NCBI GenBank assembly: GCA_030430205.1
Contig: JAUIGE010000001.1
Location: 186,001-250,000 of the forward strand
Origin: Bacteroidia bacterium
GTDB taxonomy: Bacteria > Bacteroidota > Bacteroidia > J057
Reading direction: 5' to 3'
Length of the DNA: 64,000 nt
Translations under genes and position numbers: made by a program
Part shown: one piece after another, positions 7,338-14,085 of the stretch
Position numbering within the stretch: the first letter of the stretch is position 1
How the letters are laid out: each line of letters opens with the position of its first letter
The notes under the pieces: generated by a model
Told to the model about the DNA's origin: nothing
Database searches by the model: none
Seen by the model: only the letters and a program-made list of their open reading frames with translations

Positions 7338-7350
7338 AGTTTGGAATTAT

Positions 7351-7376
7351 TATCTTTGCAATTAATGTCATTGCAA
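7351..7376 (+). promoter_or_regulatory. hmgA promoter box overlapped by an inverted repeat (candidate operator)
   Basis: TATCTTTG at 7351-7358 matches the Bacteroidota -7 box TAnnTTTG exactly; no clear -33 TTG lies at the right distance. Overlapping it is a perfect inverted repeat, TTGCAAT (7356-7362) and ATTGCAA (7370-7376), with a 7-nt spacer. The position over the transcription start suits a repressor. It shares the ATTGC/GCAAT core with the palindrome in front of hpd, so the MarR protein encoded at 12284-12718 is the obvious candidate. Confidence 0.5.
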
Positions 7377-7396
7377 CTAAAATTTATCTATTAATT

Positions 7397-8560
7397 ATGC
7401 CTATTTACCATAAACTCGGAAAGATTCCCCCGACCCGGCATATCGTTTTTGAAAAGCCTGGAGGCGGGTTATACTATGAGCAACTGTTTGGCACCATCGG
7501 ATTTGATGGGATGTCTTCACTTTTGTATCATACACACAGGCCTACCCTGGTAAAGGAAATACGCGAATCTATAGACCTTTCTCCTAAAGCTGCGGTTGCC
7601 AAAAATATGACTTCGCGCAAGCTGATGGGTTTTCAGGCAGAGCCGAAAGACGATTACCTGGAAAGCCGCGTACCGCTGCTTTTCAACAGTGACATCGTCA
7701 TTGGGGTGCAGGCACCCCGCAAATCGCTGCGCGAATATTTCTACAAAAACGCCGATGCCGATGAAATGCTTTTCATTCACAAAGGCACAGGAACCCTGCG
7801 CACTTTTGTAGGAAATATTCCCTTTGAATATGGCGATTACCTCATCATCCCCCGAGGCATGATCTATCAAATTGACTTTGATACAGAAGACAACCGCATT
7901 TTGTATTCAGAATCTTTTCACCCCATCTACACACCCAAGCGCTACCGCAACTGGTTTGGACAGATGCTGGAGCATTCTCCATTTTGTGAGCGCGATTATA
8001 AAATGCCAGAGAACCTGGAGACCTATGATGAAGAGGGAGATTTTGTGATGAAAGTGAAAAAACAAGGCCATTTGCACGAAATGGTCTATGGTTCACATCC
8101 TTTTGATGTGGTTGGATGGGATGGCTACAATTTCCCTTACGGTTTTTCCATTCACAATTTCCAGCCCATAACCGGCCGCGTACACCAGCCACCACCCGTT
8201 CATCAGACTTTTGAAACGAAAGCTTTTGTGATTTGCTCCTTTTGCCCTCGCCTTTATGATTATCATCCCAAGGCGATTCCCGCGCCATATAATCATTCGA
8301 ATATAGATTCGGATGAAGTGCTGTACTATGTGGATGGCGATTTTATGAGCCGCAATAACATTGGCCCGGGTTATATAACTTTGCACCCGGCAGGCATCCC
8401 ACATGGCCCACATCCCGGCGCTTATGAGCGCAGCATCGGTCAGACTGAAACAGCAGAGCTGGCGGTGATGATTGATACATTCAAGCCTCTGCAAATCACT
8501 GAAGAAGCGCTAGGACTGGATGATGGGAAGTATTATAGATCGTGGCTGGATCACGATTGA
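7397..8560 (+). CDS. hmgA: Homogentisate 1,2-dioxygenase
   Basis: Opens the aromatic ring of homogentisate to maleylacetoacetate with a non-haem Fe(II). The 387-residue protein starts with the family-typical PIYHKLGKIPPTRH and has two cupin-like parts. Metal and substrate ligands are visible in the C-terminal cupin: PYNHSNIDSDEVLYY followed by HPAGIPHGPHPGA. It is shorter than the eukaryotic and pseudomonad enzymes (about 430-445 residues) but matches the shorter bacterial group. It is directly followed by fahA, 41 bp downstream on the same strand, the enzyme two steps later in the pathway. Confidence 0.95.
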   Translation: MPIYHKLGKIPPTRHIVFEKPGGGLYYEQLFGTIGFDGMSSLLYHTHRPTLVKEIRESIDLSPKAAVAKNMTSRKLMGFQAEPKDDYLESRVPLLFNSDIVIGVQAPRKSLREYFYKNADADEMLFIHKGTGTLRTFVGNIPFEYGDYLIIPRGMIYQIDFDTEDNRILYSESFHPIYTPKRYRNWFGQMLEHSPFCERDYKMPENLETYDEEGDFVMKVKKQGHLHEMVYGSHPFDVVGWDGYNFPYGFSIHNFQPITGRVHQPPPVHQTFETKAFVICSFCPRLYDYHPKAIPAPYNHSNIDSDEVLYYVDGDFMSRNNIGPGYITLHPAGIPHGPHPGAYERSIGQTETAELAVMIDTFKPLQITEEALGLDDGKYYRSWLDHD

Positions 8561-8601
8561 GTTTGATATTAAGTTTGAGTTTAAGTACAAGAAGATAAAA
8601 T

Positions 8602-9846
8602 ATGGCATCATTAACTCCATGGATTTCGATTCCACAGGATTCCGACTTTAGCATTTACAATTTGCCTTTCGGCATATTTTCACGGCAGTATGAGCCGCCT
8701 CGCGCCGCGATCGCCATAGGCGATAAGTTGATCGACTTATTTCCCCTGGCAAAGCAGGGATTTTTTGATGAACTGGTGCCTACGCGCACCGTATTCGCGG
8801 AGCCGACCCTCAACAGTTTTATTGCCCTGGGCAAAAAAATCACGAACGGTGTTCGTCTCCTGGTTCAAACATGGCTTTGTGAAGAAGGCTCTCCATTGCA
8901 TCAAAACCAAGACCTCATCTATCCGCAGGCAGATGTAAAAATGCATTTACCTGTGAAAATAGGCGACTACACTGATTTCTACTCCAGCATTGAGCACGCG
9001 ACCAATGTCGGCAAAATGTTTCGCGATCCGGAAAATGCGCTTCTTCCTAACTGGAAGCATATTCCTGTCGGCTACCATGGCCGGGCCTCTTCGATCATCC
9101 CCAGCGGCCAGCCGATTCTTCGCCCTAAAGGGCAGGTGGTCGCAAAAGATGCGAAAGATCCGTCTTATCAGCCTTCCGGCAGATTGGACTTTGAGTTGGA
9201 GATGGCTTTTATCATTGGAAAAAATACAGAATTGGGCGACTCCATTTCTACAGCCGAGGCCGAAGATTACATCTTTGGGATGGTGCTATTCAATGACTGG
9301 TCCGCCAGAGATATTCAGAAATGGGAATACGTTCCGCTCGGGCCTTTTTTAGGAAAAAGCTTTGCCTCTTCCGTCTCTCCCTGGGTGGTGCCTTTGGAAG
9401 CGTTGGACCCTTTTCGGGTTCCTGGCCCGGAGCAAAACCCTCCTGTTTTGCCCTATTTAAACTATATGGGCAACAAAAATTATGACATCGCCTTAGAAGT
9501 GGGCATACAGCCCCGAGGCGCAACAGAAACCATCGTCAGCCGATCCAATTTCCAATATATGTACTGGAATATGGCCCAGCAATTGGCACATCACACCATC
9601 AACGGCTGTAATGTGAATGTGGGAGACATGATGGCTTCTGGTACGATCAGTGGAAAAAGCGAAGATTCCTACGGTTCCATGCTGGAACTCGCCTGGGCAG
9701 GCAGCAAGCCGCTCAAGATGAGCGATGGCTCAGAACGCGTCTTCATCAACGACTACGACACCGTCATCATGCGTGGCCATGCTGAAAAAGATGGCGTGCG
9801 GGTTGGATTTGGAGAGGTTAGGGCGCAGGTGTTACCGGGGAAATAG
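8602..9846 (+). CDS. fahA: Fumarylacetoacetase
   Basis: Hydrolyses fumarylacetoacetate to fumarate and acetoacetate, the last step of tyrosine breakdown. The 414 residues fit the family. The N-terminal SH3-like domain is followed by the FAH catalytic domain: DYTDFYSSIEHATNVG with the proposed catalytic histidine and metal-binding aspartate, PVGYHGRASSI, LDFELEMAFIIGKNT with the metal-binding glutamates, and LFNDWSARDIQKWEYVPLGPF. The gene follows hmgA and ends just before an imperfect hairpin element that separates it from the convergent aminotransferase gene. Maleylacetoacetate isomerase, which should act between HmgA and FahA, is not in the window. Confidence 0.97.
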   Translation: MASLTPWISIPQDSDFSIYNLPFGIFSRQYEPPRAAIAIGDKLIDLFPLAKQGFFDELVPTRTVFAEPTLNSFIALGKKITNGVRLLVQTWLCEEGSPLHQNQDLIYPQADVKMHLPVKIGDYTDFYSSIEHATNVGKMFRDPENALLPNWKHIPVGYHGRASSIIPSGQPILRPKGQVVAKDAKDPSYQPSGRLDFELEMAFIIGKNTELGDSISTAEAEDYIFGMVLFNDWSARDIQKWEYVPLGPFLGKSFASSVSPWVVPLEALDPFRVPGPEQNPPVLPYLNYMGNKNYDIALEVGIQPRGATETIVSRSNFQYMYWNMAQQLAHHTINGCNVNVGDMMASGTISGKSEDSYGSMLELAWAGSKPLKMSDGSERVFINDYDTVIMRGHAEKDGVRVGFGEVRAQVLPGK

Positions 9847-9854
9847 GGAAGAAG

Positions 9855-9922
9855 TTTCGGGTTTCGGGTTTCGGGTTTCGGGTGAATACCGGAACTCGAA
9901 ACTCAAAACCCGAAACTCGAAA
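9855..9922. repeat. Imperfect hairpin element (copy 2) between fahA and the aminotransferase
   Basis: Four TTTCGGG heptamers (9855-9882) face a partly complementary arm of CCGGAACTCGAAACTC- and CCCGAAACTCGAAAC-type sequence (9889-9922). The element ends exactly at the minus-strand stop codon (9923-9925). It could form a long imperfect hairpin and act as a bidirectional terminator. Confidence 0.8.
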
Positions 9923-11050
9923 CTATCCTAAAACTTTCTTCATCCCTTCAACAAAAGCGACATTCCCCTCATGCGTGCCGACGGTCACGCGGATATGTCC
10001 TGGAGCGCCATTATTGGCGCCTGAGCGGATCATCACCCCTTCCGCCAACATTTTGTTGACGAGTTCATCCACCGCTATGGGGGATTTGAAGAGGATGAAA
10101 TTCGTGTGACTTTCCCAGTAGCGAATGCCTAATTCGTCAAAGGCAGCATACAGAAAGGGTTTTTCTGCTTTCATCAGGTTCTGTGTCGCCTCTACATGCT
10201 CCACATCTCCCAGGGCTGCGATAGCCCCTTCTACGCTCATCGCACTGATGAAGAAAGGCCTGCGCAATTTTTGCAGGTAGTCTGCTATGCGTGGTGTGCA
10301 AAAGGCGTAGCCTGCTCGCATACCCGCAAGGCCGTAGGCCTTGGAGAAGCTGTGCAAGCCGATCACGTTTTTCCCTTCGAGCACATAGTCCTTTGCAAAA
10401 GGAAAGCAGCTTTGATCTGCAAAATGCCAGTACACTTCATCATGAAGCAGGATGACATGTGGAGGTAGGTTATTCACCAGGCGATCCATCGTCTCCCTGG
10501 GAATCATGGTTCCTGTCGGATTGTTGGGATTGGTCACGAAGATCAATCGGGTATTATCATTGATGGCATCGAGTATGCCCTCCACATCCAACTCAAACTC
10601 ACCTTCCAGTAAAGGGACATTTACCACTTTGGCTCCATTGAGCTGGGAAAAAATTTCATATACATGAAAGGTAGGGTTAGAAAGGATGCACTCCAGGCCG
10701 GGCTCCAGAAATCCTCTGGCGAGCATATCAATGATCTCCAGGCCGCTATTGGCGGTCACAAACTGATCAGGCGTCAGTTCGCCCTCAAAGTGCGCTGAAA
10801 GCGCCTCCCGGAAGGGATCGTCGGTACGATAAGCGTATTCATGGAGGTTGGCCAGGCTCTTTCGGATGGCTTCGAGGGCCTTGGGTGAAGGCCCGAGAAC
10901 GTTCTCGTTGGAAGAAAGCTTGTACAGCTTTTTGCCTTCTACAAGCTCCTGTACTTCGGCCGTGGTGCGGCCGGCTTTTTGGTTCAGATCAGCCTGAAAC
11001 TGATCTATATGCGCCTTAAAAGGCGAAATTTTTGTTGTCGTGCGGCTCAT
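9923..11050 (-). CDS. HisC-like aminotransferase, probably tyrosine transaminase
   Basis: Class I/II PLP aminotransferase of 375 residues. By sequence it belongs to the histidinol-phosphate aminotransferase group: LSSNENVLGPSP near the N-terminus, TNPNNPTGT, HDEVYWHF, the PLP-lysine motif SFSKAYGLAGMRAGY, and a C-terminal arginine in IRVTVGTHEGN that binds the substrate carboxylate. No other his gene is near. It lies 11 bp downstream of hpd, whose substrate 4-hydroxyphenylpyruvate is what tyrosine transamination yields, so the context points to tyrosine (or general aromatic) aminotransferase activity. HisC-fold enzymes are known to accept aromatic amino acids in several bacteria. A role in histidine synthesis remains possible if no other hisC exists in the genome. 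Confidence 0.85.
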   Translation of the reverse strand: MSRTTTKISPFKAHIDQFQADLNQKAGRTTAEVQELVEGKKLYKLSSNENVLGPSPKALEAIRKSLANLHEYAYRTDDPFREALSAHFEGELTPDQFVTANSGLEIIDMLARGFLEPGLECILSNPTFHVYEIFSQLNGAKVVNVPLLEGEFELDVEGILDAINDNTRLIFVTNPNNPTGTMIPRETMDRLVNNLPPHVILLHDEVYWHFADQSCFPFAKDYVLEGKNVIGLHSFSKAYGLAGMRAGYAFCTPRIADYLQKLRRPFFISAMSVEGAIAALGDVEHVEATQNLMKAEKPFLYAAFDELGIRYWESHTNFILFKSPIAVDELVNKMLAEGVMIRSGANNGAPGHIRVTVGTHEGNVAFVEGMKKVLG

Positions 11051-11061
11051 AATTTTTCCTT

Positions 11062-12195
11062 TTACAAGGTTCCTCTTATCTCCTGCTCACGCTCAATCGC
11101 TTCAAAGAGAGCTTTGAAGTTACCCTTGCCAAAAGAGGTAGCGCCTTTGCGCTGGATGATCTCAAAAAACATCGTAGGCCTTGGGCCTACAGGCTTGGTG
11201 AATATTTGCAACAAATAACCTTCATCATCACGATCCACCAAAACGCCCAGCTCTTTGAGCGGTTCTAAATCTTCATCAATGGGACCTACGCGGTCCAACA
11301 ATACATCATAGTAGGTTGTTGGAACACGCAGAAATTCTATGCCGCGAGCTTGCAACTCCTTTACTGTTGCTATCACATTGTCTGTAGCGACCGCTATGTG
11401 CTGCACACCAGCGCCCTCATAAAAATCCAGGTATTCATCTACCTGAGACCTTTTCAAGCCTTCAGCAGGCTCATTGATAGGAAATTTGATGCGGCCGTTA
11501 CCGTTGCTCATCACTTTACTCATGAGTGCGGTATATTCCGTAGAAATGTCTTTGTCATCAAAAGACATGATCTGGGTGAAGCCCATCACATCTTCATAAA
11601 AATTGACCCACTCATTCATTTGACCCAACTCAACATTACCTACCATGTGGTCGACATACTTTAAGCCCACTGGCTCAGGATTGTAGTCGGTTTCCCACTT
11701 TTTGAAAGCAGGCAGAAAGAGACCTTTGTAGTCTTTGCGTTCTACAAAAAGGTGAATGGTTTCACCATAAGTATAAATCCCTGCGCGAACCACTTGTCCA
11801 TCTTTGTCTTTTTCAACAACAGGCTCCATATAGGATTTAGCGCCTCTTTTGATCGCTTCCTGATAAGCATAGGTAGCATCATCCACCCAAAGGGCGATCA
11901 TTTTTACCCCATCACCATGCTTATCTATGTGACGGCCGACATCTGTTCCGCTTTTGAGTGGAGAAGTGAGGATCAGTCTGATTTTATCCTGAACAACTAC
12001 ATAAGACTCCCGATCCGTCAATCCTGTCTCCAGGCCAGCATAGGCCATAGATTGGAATCCAAAGGCGGTTTTGTAGAAATGTGCTGCCTGCTTGGAATTG
12101 CTGACATAGAGCTCCAGATAATCCGTGCCATTGATAGGCATGAAGTCGGCAGCGTTCTCGTAAATTTTGGGTATGTTATTCGTTGTAATCGGCAT
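11062..12195 (-). CDS. hpd: 4-Hydroxyphenylpyruvate dioxygenase
   Basis: Converts 4-hydroxyphenylpyruvate to homogentisate using Fe(II) and O2. The 377-residue sequence has the two-domain glyoxalase/VOC fold. The 2-His-1-Glu iron site can be read as the histidine in YVDHMVGNV, the histidine in VQHIAVATDN and the glutamate in MFFEIIQRKG close to the C-terminus. Length is normal. It is followed after 11 bp by the aminotransferase, so the two probably form an operon. A 14-bp perfect palindrome lies 30 bp upstream, in the gap to the MarR gene. Confidence 0.97.
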   Translation of the reverse strand: MPITTNNIPKIYENAADFMPINGTDYLELYVSNSKQAAHFYKTAFGFQSMAYAGLETGLTDRESYVVVQDKIRLILTSPLKSGTDVGRHIDKHGDGVKMIALWVDDATYAYQEAIKRGAKSYMEPVVEKDKDGQVVRAGIYTYGETIHLFVERKDYKGLFLPAFKKWETDYNPEPVGLKYVDHMVGNVELGQMNEWVNFYEDVMGFTQIMSFDDKDISTEYTALMSKVMSNGNGRIKFPINEPAEGLKRSQVDEYLDFYEGAGVQHIAVATDNVIATVKELQARGIEFLRVPTTYYDVLLDRVGPIDEDLEPLKELGVLVDRDDEGYLLQIFTKPVGPRPTMFFEIIQRKGATSFGKGNFKALFEAIEREQEIRGTL

Positions 12196-12224
12196 GACTA
12201 AAATAAATTATTTATGCTACAATA

Positions 12225-12238
12225 ATTGCCATGGCAAT
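12225..12238. promoter_or_regulatory. Perfect 14-bp palindrome ATTGCCATGGCAAT (candidate MarR operator)
   Basis: The palindrome lies in the 88-bp gap between the MarR gene and hpd, 30 bp before the hpd start codon. MarR dimers generally bind short palindromes that overlap promoters of adjacent genes. The core ATTGC/GCAAT also occurs as an inverted repeat at the hmgA promoter. Binding by this MarR is inference from proximity and symmetry. Confidence 0.5.
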
Positions 12239-12283
12239 ATACCACTTTTTGGAAAGATGGCCAAACAACTGCCAGGCGGCTCT

Positions 12284-12718
12284 TTATTCAAAGTTCGTAA
12301 AAATCTGATTCAGAATCCGGGTAAAGTGCTGATAATCTTCTTCTCCCAGTTTTTGCCAGCCTTGCTCGCGTAGCCCTTGCACGAGGGGCTGTGCTTTTTC
12401 GACCACCTGCTTTCCCTGAAGTGTCAGGAAAACGCGATGCCTTCTTCTGTCATTTTCAAAACGTTGACGCTCAGTAAAGCCTTTTTTTTCGAGCAAATCG
12501 AGAATACGGGAGATGGTAGGGGTATTTTTAAAAATTTGTGCAGCCAGGTCGGTTTGAGAGAGGCCGTTGTCATAATAGAGCTTTTCGAGCAATACCCACT
12601 GCTCAGGAGTAATATCCAGGCCTAGCTGGGCAAAGGCCTGACTGAAGCCGAGTTTCACTTTACGGCTGGTTCTTTCGAGGAGATAACCAAAGTATTTGTG
12701 ATCGCTTCCCTTATCCAT
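12284..12718 (-). CDS. MarR family transcriptional regulator
   Basis: Winged-helix regulator of 144 residues, a typical MarR length. The start at 12718 (MDKGSDHKYFGYLLERTSRK) is preferred because the 11 residues encoded upstream run into a terminator. The recognition region is visible as GLSQTDLAAQIFKNTPTISR, and the wing follows with ERQRFENDRRRHRVFLT (the DxRxxxxxLT pattern). It stands immediately upstream of hpd on the same strand, so it probably controls the tyrosine degradation genes, likely with a pathway metabolite such as homogentisate or hydroxyphenylpyruvate as ligand. The ligand is a guess. The only upstream space is the 3' terminator of tRNA-Glu, so its own promoter is unclear. 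Confidence 0.9.
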   Translation of the reverse strand: MDKGSDHKYFGYLLERTSRKVKLGFSQAFAQLGLDITPEQWVLLEKLYYDNGLSQTDLAAQIFKNTPTISRILDLLEKKGFTERQRFENDRRRHRVFLTLQGKQVVEKAQPLVQGLREQGWQKLGEEDYQHFTRILNQIFTNFE

Positions 12719-12768: not shown

Positions 12769-12772
12769 ACTG

Positions 12773-12844
12773 TACCCCGTAGGGGAATCGAACCCCTGTT
12801 GCCAGAATGAAAATCTGGAGTCCTAACCGCTAGACGAACGGGGC
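12773..12844 (-). tRNA. tRNA-Glu (UUC)
   Basis: A complete 72-nt cloverleaf on the minus strand. The anticodon stem CCAGA/TCTGG encloses the loop TTTTCAT, giving anticodon UUC. The T-arm GGGGTTCGATTCCCC is intact. The acceptor stem has six Watson-Crick pairs and a G1-U72 wobble; the discriminator is A and no CCA is encoded. Confidence 0.97.

Positions 12845-13062: not shown

Positions 13063-14085
<1,023 letters not shown>

Follow-up and report, generated by a model that had tools for sequence, protein, structure and literature searches.

What controls tyrosine degradation in Bacteroidota, and do the symmetric sequences in front of two genes of the pathway have a part in it? The question is raised by a 64,000-nucleotide stretch of a Bacteroidia bacterium genome (GenBank assembly GCA_030430205.1, contig JAUIGE010000001.1, positions 186,001 to 250,000), which is called the window here, at its full length, and which lies inside contig G000:C14 of the 7.24 Mb source genome. 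The gene order across the locus is acyl-CoA dehydrogenase, hmgA and fahA on the plus strand, followed by an aminotransferase gene, hpd and marR on the minus strand. The original prediction, a tyrosine-degradation regulon linked to the MarR gene in which each of the two promoters carries a symmetric site of related sequence, is supported by gene linkage, by conservation at hpd and by the first and fourth ranks of the two sites in the genome. From these comparisons we consider it likely that both sites are operators of the MarR protein encoded at 12284-12718. The support consists of the conservation at hpd, the position of the operator over the -7 box, the linkage to marR, the rank of the sites in the genome and their recurrence at pathway genes.

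Both repeats are present as first described. The perfect 14-bp palindrome ATTGCCATGGCAAT at 12225-12238 lies within the 88-bp gap between marR and hpd, and the 7-7-7 repeat TTGCAAT-TAATGTC-ATTGCAA at 7356-7376 lies inside the 59-bp gap before hmgA, where it overlaps the sequence TATCTTTG (7351-7358). Neither exceeds chance taken singly. Across the window there are 15 perfect palindromes of 14 bp, and inverted repeats with 7-bp arms at a spacing of 0-20 number 334, or 0.31 per 60 bp. As repeats of both kinds are this common, a comparison across genomes was needed, and what does exceed chance is the match to an operator that is conserved in other genomes.

A scan of a genome collection with seven MarR sequences (A1) gave 418 relatives, and the best 80 of the 418 were kept. 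These loci come mostly from Saprospiraceae and Lewinellaceae, and also from Flexithrix, Larkinella, Persicitalea and Dyadobacter. In 45 of these loci at least one of hpd, hmgA and fahA lies within the fetched flank of marR, several of the contigs being short. Tandem marR pairs occur at L119, L121, L124, L125 and L127, with none of these three genes in the fetched flank. By pattern score, 39 of 44 hpd upstream regions have a site; the five below the threshold are L129, L152, L161, L167 and L192, and in L152, L161 and L192 hmgA comes before hpd. The consensus of the hpd sites is TATATTTGYCATRRCAACTATTG, and it contains the 12-bp palindrome TTGYNATNRCAA, whose left half is common to the -7 box of the promoter. 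The 12-mer is found with at most one mismatch in 37 of 43 hpd upstream regions (the 44 without L129, which has a run of N); in 200 sets shuffled by dinucleotide the number was 1.6 on average and never above 6. A second copy lies exactly 15 bp downstream in 21 of the 43, while any other spacing from 10 to 25 occurs in 0-2; near-duplicates were kept in both counts. Removal of the near-duplicates L115, L137 and L143, and of L116 (same genus and same contig as G001), reduces the 39 sites to a set of 35 (A2). Conservation averages 1.25 bits per position in the core and 0.14 in the flanks, and 12 of the 35 promoters have a TTG 19-20 nt upstream of the -7 box, other spacings of 14-27 giving 0-1. The training sites were selected by pattern, so that conservation inside the 12-mer is partly circular; this applies less to the CTATT tail, to the control with shuffled sequences, to the second copy at 15 bp and to the profile matches outside the training set. 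Judged by its sequence, the conserved arrangement looks like a promoter with an operator over it.

In the window the proposed parts of this arrangement at hpd are the following.

12226-12237, minus strand: hpd operator copy 1, TTGCCATGGCAA, the core of the 14-bp palindrome at 12225-12238, with no mismatches to TTGYNATNRCAA.
12211-12222, minus strand: hpd operator copy 2, a degenerate form, TTGTAGCATAAA, with 4 mismatches, which follows copy 1 at 15 bp on the downstream side and lies within the profile match at 12205-12237.
12234-12241, minus strand: putative -7 box of hpd, TATATTGC, which overlaps the operator and sits where other genomes have the conserved TATATTTG.
12262-12265, minus strand: TTTG, the putative -33 element of hpd, 20 nt upstream of the -7 box, in line with the TTG spacing seen in 12 of the 35 related promoters.

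The -7 consensus of Bacteroidota is TAnnTTTG (PMC6847099, PMC9723704), and the first T of the box is numbered -12 (PMC6847099). By this numbering the predicted transcription start would fall inside the hpd palindrome and, at hmgA, between the two operator copies described below. Compared with TATATTTG, the hpd box TATATTGC is one base shorter in the stretch from TA to TTG, and it agrees with TAnnTTGY, the box given for a separate promoter class in Flavobacterium psychrophilum (PMC9723704).

A sequence-only profile, R1, was made from the 35 hpd sites of set A2 and excludes the window, its genus and any hmgA site. When the source genome was searched with it, the window's hpd site ranked first (18.7 bits, expectation value (E) 0.0138) and the window's hmgA site fourth (12.6 bits, E 1.19). 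The other eight matches, at seven places, have no pathway gene within 1.5 kb. At one of these places (L199) an open reading frame about 370 bp away is MarR-like by eye. When the window itself was searched with filters off, the first four matches were the hpd and hmgA sites on both strands (E 0.00012, 0.016, 0.028 and 0.09), the hmgA site being second at E 0.016, and the fifth reached only E 1.2. The two sites are thus the only clear R1 matches within the window.

The relation between the two sites had been placed in a shared ATTGC/GCAAT core. Both elements are present in each, but the order of the halves is reversed (ATTGC...GCAAT at one site, GCAAT...ATTGC at the other), so that like was not being compared with like. 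A better reading of the hmgA site is as the hpd operator in two degenerate copies, 15 bp apart.

7365-7376, plus strand: hmgA operator copy B, ATGTCATTGCAA, which differs from the 12-mer at 1 position, within the R1 match at 7347-7384.
7350-7361, plus strand: hmgA operator copy A, a degenerate form, TTATCTTTGCAA, with 2 mismatches, at a distance of 15 bp from copy B and within the same R1 match.
7351-7358, plus strand: putative -7 box of hmgA, TATCTTTG, which fits TAnnTTTG (PMC6847099).

In this register the 7-7-7 repeat consists of the right halves of two operator copies, and TTGCAA is palindromic by itself. The suggestion that the two sites differ in spacing (0 versus 7) and may be bound differently therefore falls away, the hmgA site fitting the same 12-bp operator at the 15-bp pitch of the hpd regions. 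A single hmgA operator of the form GCAAT-N7-ATTGC was considered and dropped, as the tandem reading agrees with the profile and with the hpd sites. By plain pattern TTGYNATNRCAA the best pairs at 15-bp pitch in the window are those at hmgA (7350, 3 mismatches in total) and hpd (12211, 4 mismatches). Pairs with up to 4 mismatches also occur at other spacings of 12-23, at 0-2 per spacing, and the 15-bp spacing consequently proves little within the window alone. Two other patterns were set aside. ATTGC-N9-GCAAT was uninformative in the source genome, since its half-site order and spacing describe neither site; ATTGNCATGNCAAT, with at most one mismatch, beat its reversed pattern in 13 of 13 genomes, including those in which no ortholog was found, perhaps through base composition, and was not used.

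Does the operator recur at genes of the pathway elsewhere? A further 47 genomes (30 plus 20, with 3 shared) were reached through MarR loci. With the training sites and their near-copies set aside, they contain 19 R1 sites that reach E 0.01 or lower. Nine of these lie upstream of hmgA (G100, G107, G114, G129), hpd (G123, G142, G139), an aminotransferase gene (G121) and a phenylalanine hydroxylase gene (G143). The G121 aminotransferase is about 50% identical to that of the window, and the G143 gene encodes a biopterin-dependent aromatic amino acid hydroxylase, that is, phenylalanine hydroxylase. Two more precede dehydrogenases of the Glu/Leu/Phe/Val type (L250 in G127, L299 in G142), one is flanked by genes for an E1 dehydrogenase and for an AMP-binding enzyme (G139), one precedes a prephenate dehydratase gene by about 215 bp (G144), and six have no evident pathway link. 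An R1 site at only E 0.035 lies near another Glu/Leu/Phe/Val-type dehydrogenase gene in G120 (L245). In Neolewinella agarilytica the genome-best R1 site is about 20 bp upstream of a gene for a biopterin-dependent aromatic amino acid hydroxylase (PF00351; L283:743-1480, minus strand). When sites weaker than E 0.01 are admitted, the hmgA promoter is among the two best matches in five of nine Dyadobacter genomes (G129, G130, G132, G134, G137), and at these five promoters marR is absent within 1.5 kb. In G145 and G124 the second R1 match is at hpd. Sites are also found 57 bp (L257, G052) and 34 bp (L272, G066) upstream of marR genes that are 30-35% identical to the window's, and they point to MarR proteins as the binders.

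Several observations weigh against control of both promoters by the neighbouring MarR. The E-values of R1 err on the optimistic side: in 51 of 100 relatives at least one match is at E up to 0.05, E 0.01-0.05 is at noise level there, and the 21 matches that reach E 0.01 are mostly without a link. Two of the 21 are at hpd (G004, G005), one is upstream of marR (G052) and one, from coordinates, is beside the end of another marR (G005), and among those examined of the remaining 17 there is no pathway or marR gene. The window's marR has no R1 site in its own upstream region, and four of the nine Dyadobacter genomes have no pathway-gene match among the matches listed and loci examined. On the tree, MarRs linked to hpd turn up in scattered places (13 label changes, of which at least 6 are forced; shuffled mean 31.5, none of 500 shuffles as low), so that the linkage was gained or lost repeatedly. 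Among the 80 loci there are five hmgA upstream regions, and the R1 site is clear in L152 and L164 and weak in L173 (E 0.041); L161 (E 0.75) and L192 (no match) are unconvincing. No R1 site was found at hmgA of G001 (same genus), G003, G005, G007 or G008; G001, G005 and G007 retain the hpd site, which is weak in G001 (E 0.05) and about 240 bp upstream in G007. The conservation of the motif that had been looked for in orthologous intergenic regions is accordingly seen at hpd, and at hmgA it extends to several other lineages and not to these five genomes. Their lack of the site, together with the degenerate match in the window, would suit an explanation in which the hpd operator is real, the hmgA site is a chance resemblance and hmgA stands outside the regulon. 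This is compatible with our reading as far as hpd is concerned, and its likelihood overlaps with it; we regard it as rather unlikely. The hmgA site is nevertheless fourth in 7.24 Mb and inside the short gap before the gene, both copies are present at the 15-bp pitch, and the same operator precedes hmgA in L152, L164, G114 and the five Dyadobacter genomes.

It seems to us less probable again that the operator is real but bound by a MarR paralog or a protein of another family, with the neighbouring MarR a bystander. In G004 the hpd site is strong, but no clear MarR ortholog was found in its 1670-contig assembly; G002 shows the reverse, a MarR relative at 43% and, at hpd, no match to R1. L074, from G002, and L082, the second hpd of G004, are among nine hpd loci (L074-L082) without an R1 match at E up to 5. 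The sites upstream of the more distant marR genes at L257 and L272 also suggest that the specificity may be common to paralogs. Against this, marR is linked to hpd, hmgA or fahA in over half of the kept loci and is clustered on the tree beyond 500 shuffles, and R1 at E up to 5 gave no match in 24 hmgA loci (97.9 kb; 22 also carry hpd, whole or in part) from Bacteroidota genomes whose best MarR match is at most 73 bits and which thus have no close MarR relative. The same 24 control loci bear on the idea that the conserved block is merely a promoter element, symmetrical without any regulator. The block does overlap TATATTTG, and with it the -7 consensus TAnnTTTG, but conservation continues beyond the box through RCAACTATT, a second copy follows at 15 bp, and the block was not found at the controls. 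We hold this idea to be very improbable.

Some related sequences were seen beside these genes. Upstream of hmgA in G003 (L038, about 1409-1472) the perfect palindrome TTGACATGTCAA occurs twice, at a distance of about 51 bp, and one copy comes right after a TATCTTTG box; the best MarR match in G003 is 31% identical, and this related but different motif may perhaps belong to a sister regulator. Upstream of hmgA in G005 (L036) an inverted repeat, GTTAGTA-TTTT-TACTAAC, is found near the promoter and is unlike that genome's own hpd operator. A mixed-half variant was noticed by eye, as TTGTCATACTAA in L161 (Flexithrix, hmgA) and L010 (G060, marR) and as TTAGTGTAACAA in L101 (G051, hmgA). It has a second copy at 15 bp in L161 and L010, and its R1 score is weak or nil.

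If the neighbouring MarR is the repressor, we infer that a MarR dimer binds TTGYNATNRCAA, and that at both promoters the operator covers the -7 box together with the start site expected there. A second dimer could bind 15 bp, or about 1.4 turns, away, on roughly the opposite face of the DNA, wherever a good second copy is present; here that copy is degenerate. Bound MarR would block RNA polymerase from the hpd-aminotransferase and hmgA-fahA units, and a pathway compound would release it, the candidates being 4-hydroxyphenylpyruvate, homogentisate or another aromatic acid.

The genes of the locus were assigned as follows.

12284-12718, minus strand: marR, the proposed repressor, 144 aa; Pfam MarR PF01047, 54.0 bits, cut-off 24.6.
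11062-12195, minus strand: hpd, 4-hydroxyphenylpyruvate dioxygenase; TIGR01263, 443.8 bits, cut-off 277.
9923-11050, minus strand: HisC-like aminotransferase; Aminotran_1_2; TIGR01141, 268.1 bits, slightly below the cut-off of 276.55.
7397-8560, plus strand: hmgA, likely a divergent homogentisate dioxygenase; Pfam HgmA_N, 45.7 against 20.2; TIGR01015, 60.3 bits, cut-off 510.75.
8602-9846, plus strand: fahA, fumarylacetoacetase; TIGR01266, 565.7 bits, cut-off 375.3.
12772-12844, minus strand: tRNA-Glu.
At 13087: gapA-like open reading frame, from a reading of its translation.

The winged-helix domain of the window's MarR exceeds the Pfam gathering score, which places the protein in the MarR family, and hpd and fahA both exceed their NCBIfam cut-offs, as expected of a homogentisate pathway of tyrosine degradation. 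The hmgA product is recognised by Pfam HgmA_N only and falls far under the cut-off of the equivalog TIGR01015, and for this reason we call it a divergent form, which is likely given the Pfam match and its fahA neighbour. The 41-bp gap between hmgA and fahA suggests that they are probably in one operon. The HisC-like aminotransferase probably carries out the tyrosine aminotransferase step, judging from its linkage; relatives of its gene adjoin marR-hpd in other genomes.

Local control of this pathway has been described in other bacteria. HmgS, a MarR-family protein, was predicted by comparative genomics to control hmgAB in Alteromonadales and Pseudoalteromonadales (PMC5343134). It resembles the present case as a local MarR-family regulator predicted for homogentisate genes, and differs in belonging to another phylum and in that hpd is the best-conserved target here, a comparison made with the description of HmgS only. 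HmgR (IclR family) and HmgQ (LysR family) likewise act locally on the pathway but belong to protein families other than MarR, and homogentisate is named as the anti-repressor for HmgR of Pseudomonas putida (PMC5343134). The TyrR/PhrR-type regulons of Gammaproteobacteria include phhAB, hpd and hmg genes, a range that is also hinted at by the broader set of sites found here, but they differ in protein family and in a wider regulon that includes biosynthesis and transport (PMC5343134). HpaR, the MarR-family regulator of homoprotocatechuate degradation, is the best NCBIfam match of the window's MarR and is likewise concerned with aromatic catabolism; the window's protein is not a member (TIGR02337, 52.9 bits against a cut-off of 121.2). 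Its closest solved chains by profile search, Lin2960 (3oop), 8xt8, MepR and SlyA, match over the whole length and indicate family likeness only. Going by the cited account of HmgS, MarR control of the homogentisate pathway had already been predicted in Proteobacteria, and the proposed regulator, motif and target set in Bacteroidota are new here; no Bacteroidota counterpart was found in the open-access collection searched, most subscription journals being outside the search.

The sites taken together allow a wider proposal, which we put forward tentatively as a possibility. Bacteroidota may have an aromatic amino acid catabolic regulon that is a functional counterpart of TyrR/PhhR, in which two MarR dimers on a double operator of 15-bp pitch would clasp the -7 box from roughly opposite faces, with lineage-dependent targets among hpd, hmgA-fahA, the HisC-like tyrosine aminotransferase, phenylalanine hydroxylase and dehydrogenases of the Glu/Leu/Phe/Val type. 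The present analysis puts forward, for an aromatic amino acid pathway in Bacteroidota, a candidate regulator together with its DNA motif and target genes, and assigns a likely function to a group of MarR proteins and to the HisC-like aminotransferase. The operator over TATATTTG provides a concrete model of how a repressor may block the unusual promoter of the phylum, and if the inducer is homogentisate or 4-hydroxyphenylpyruvate the system could find use as a sensor part.

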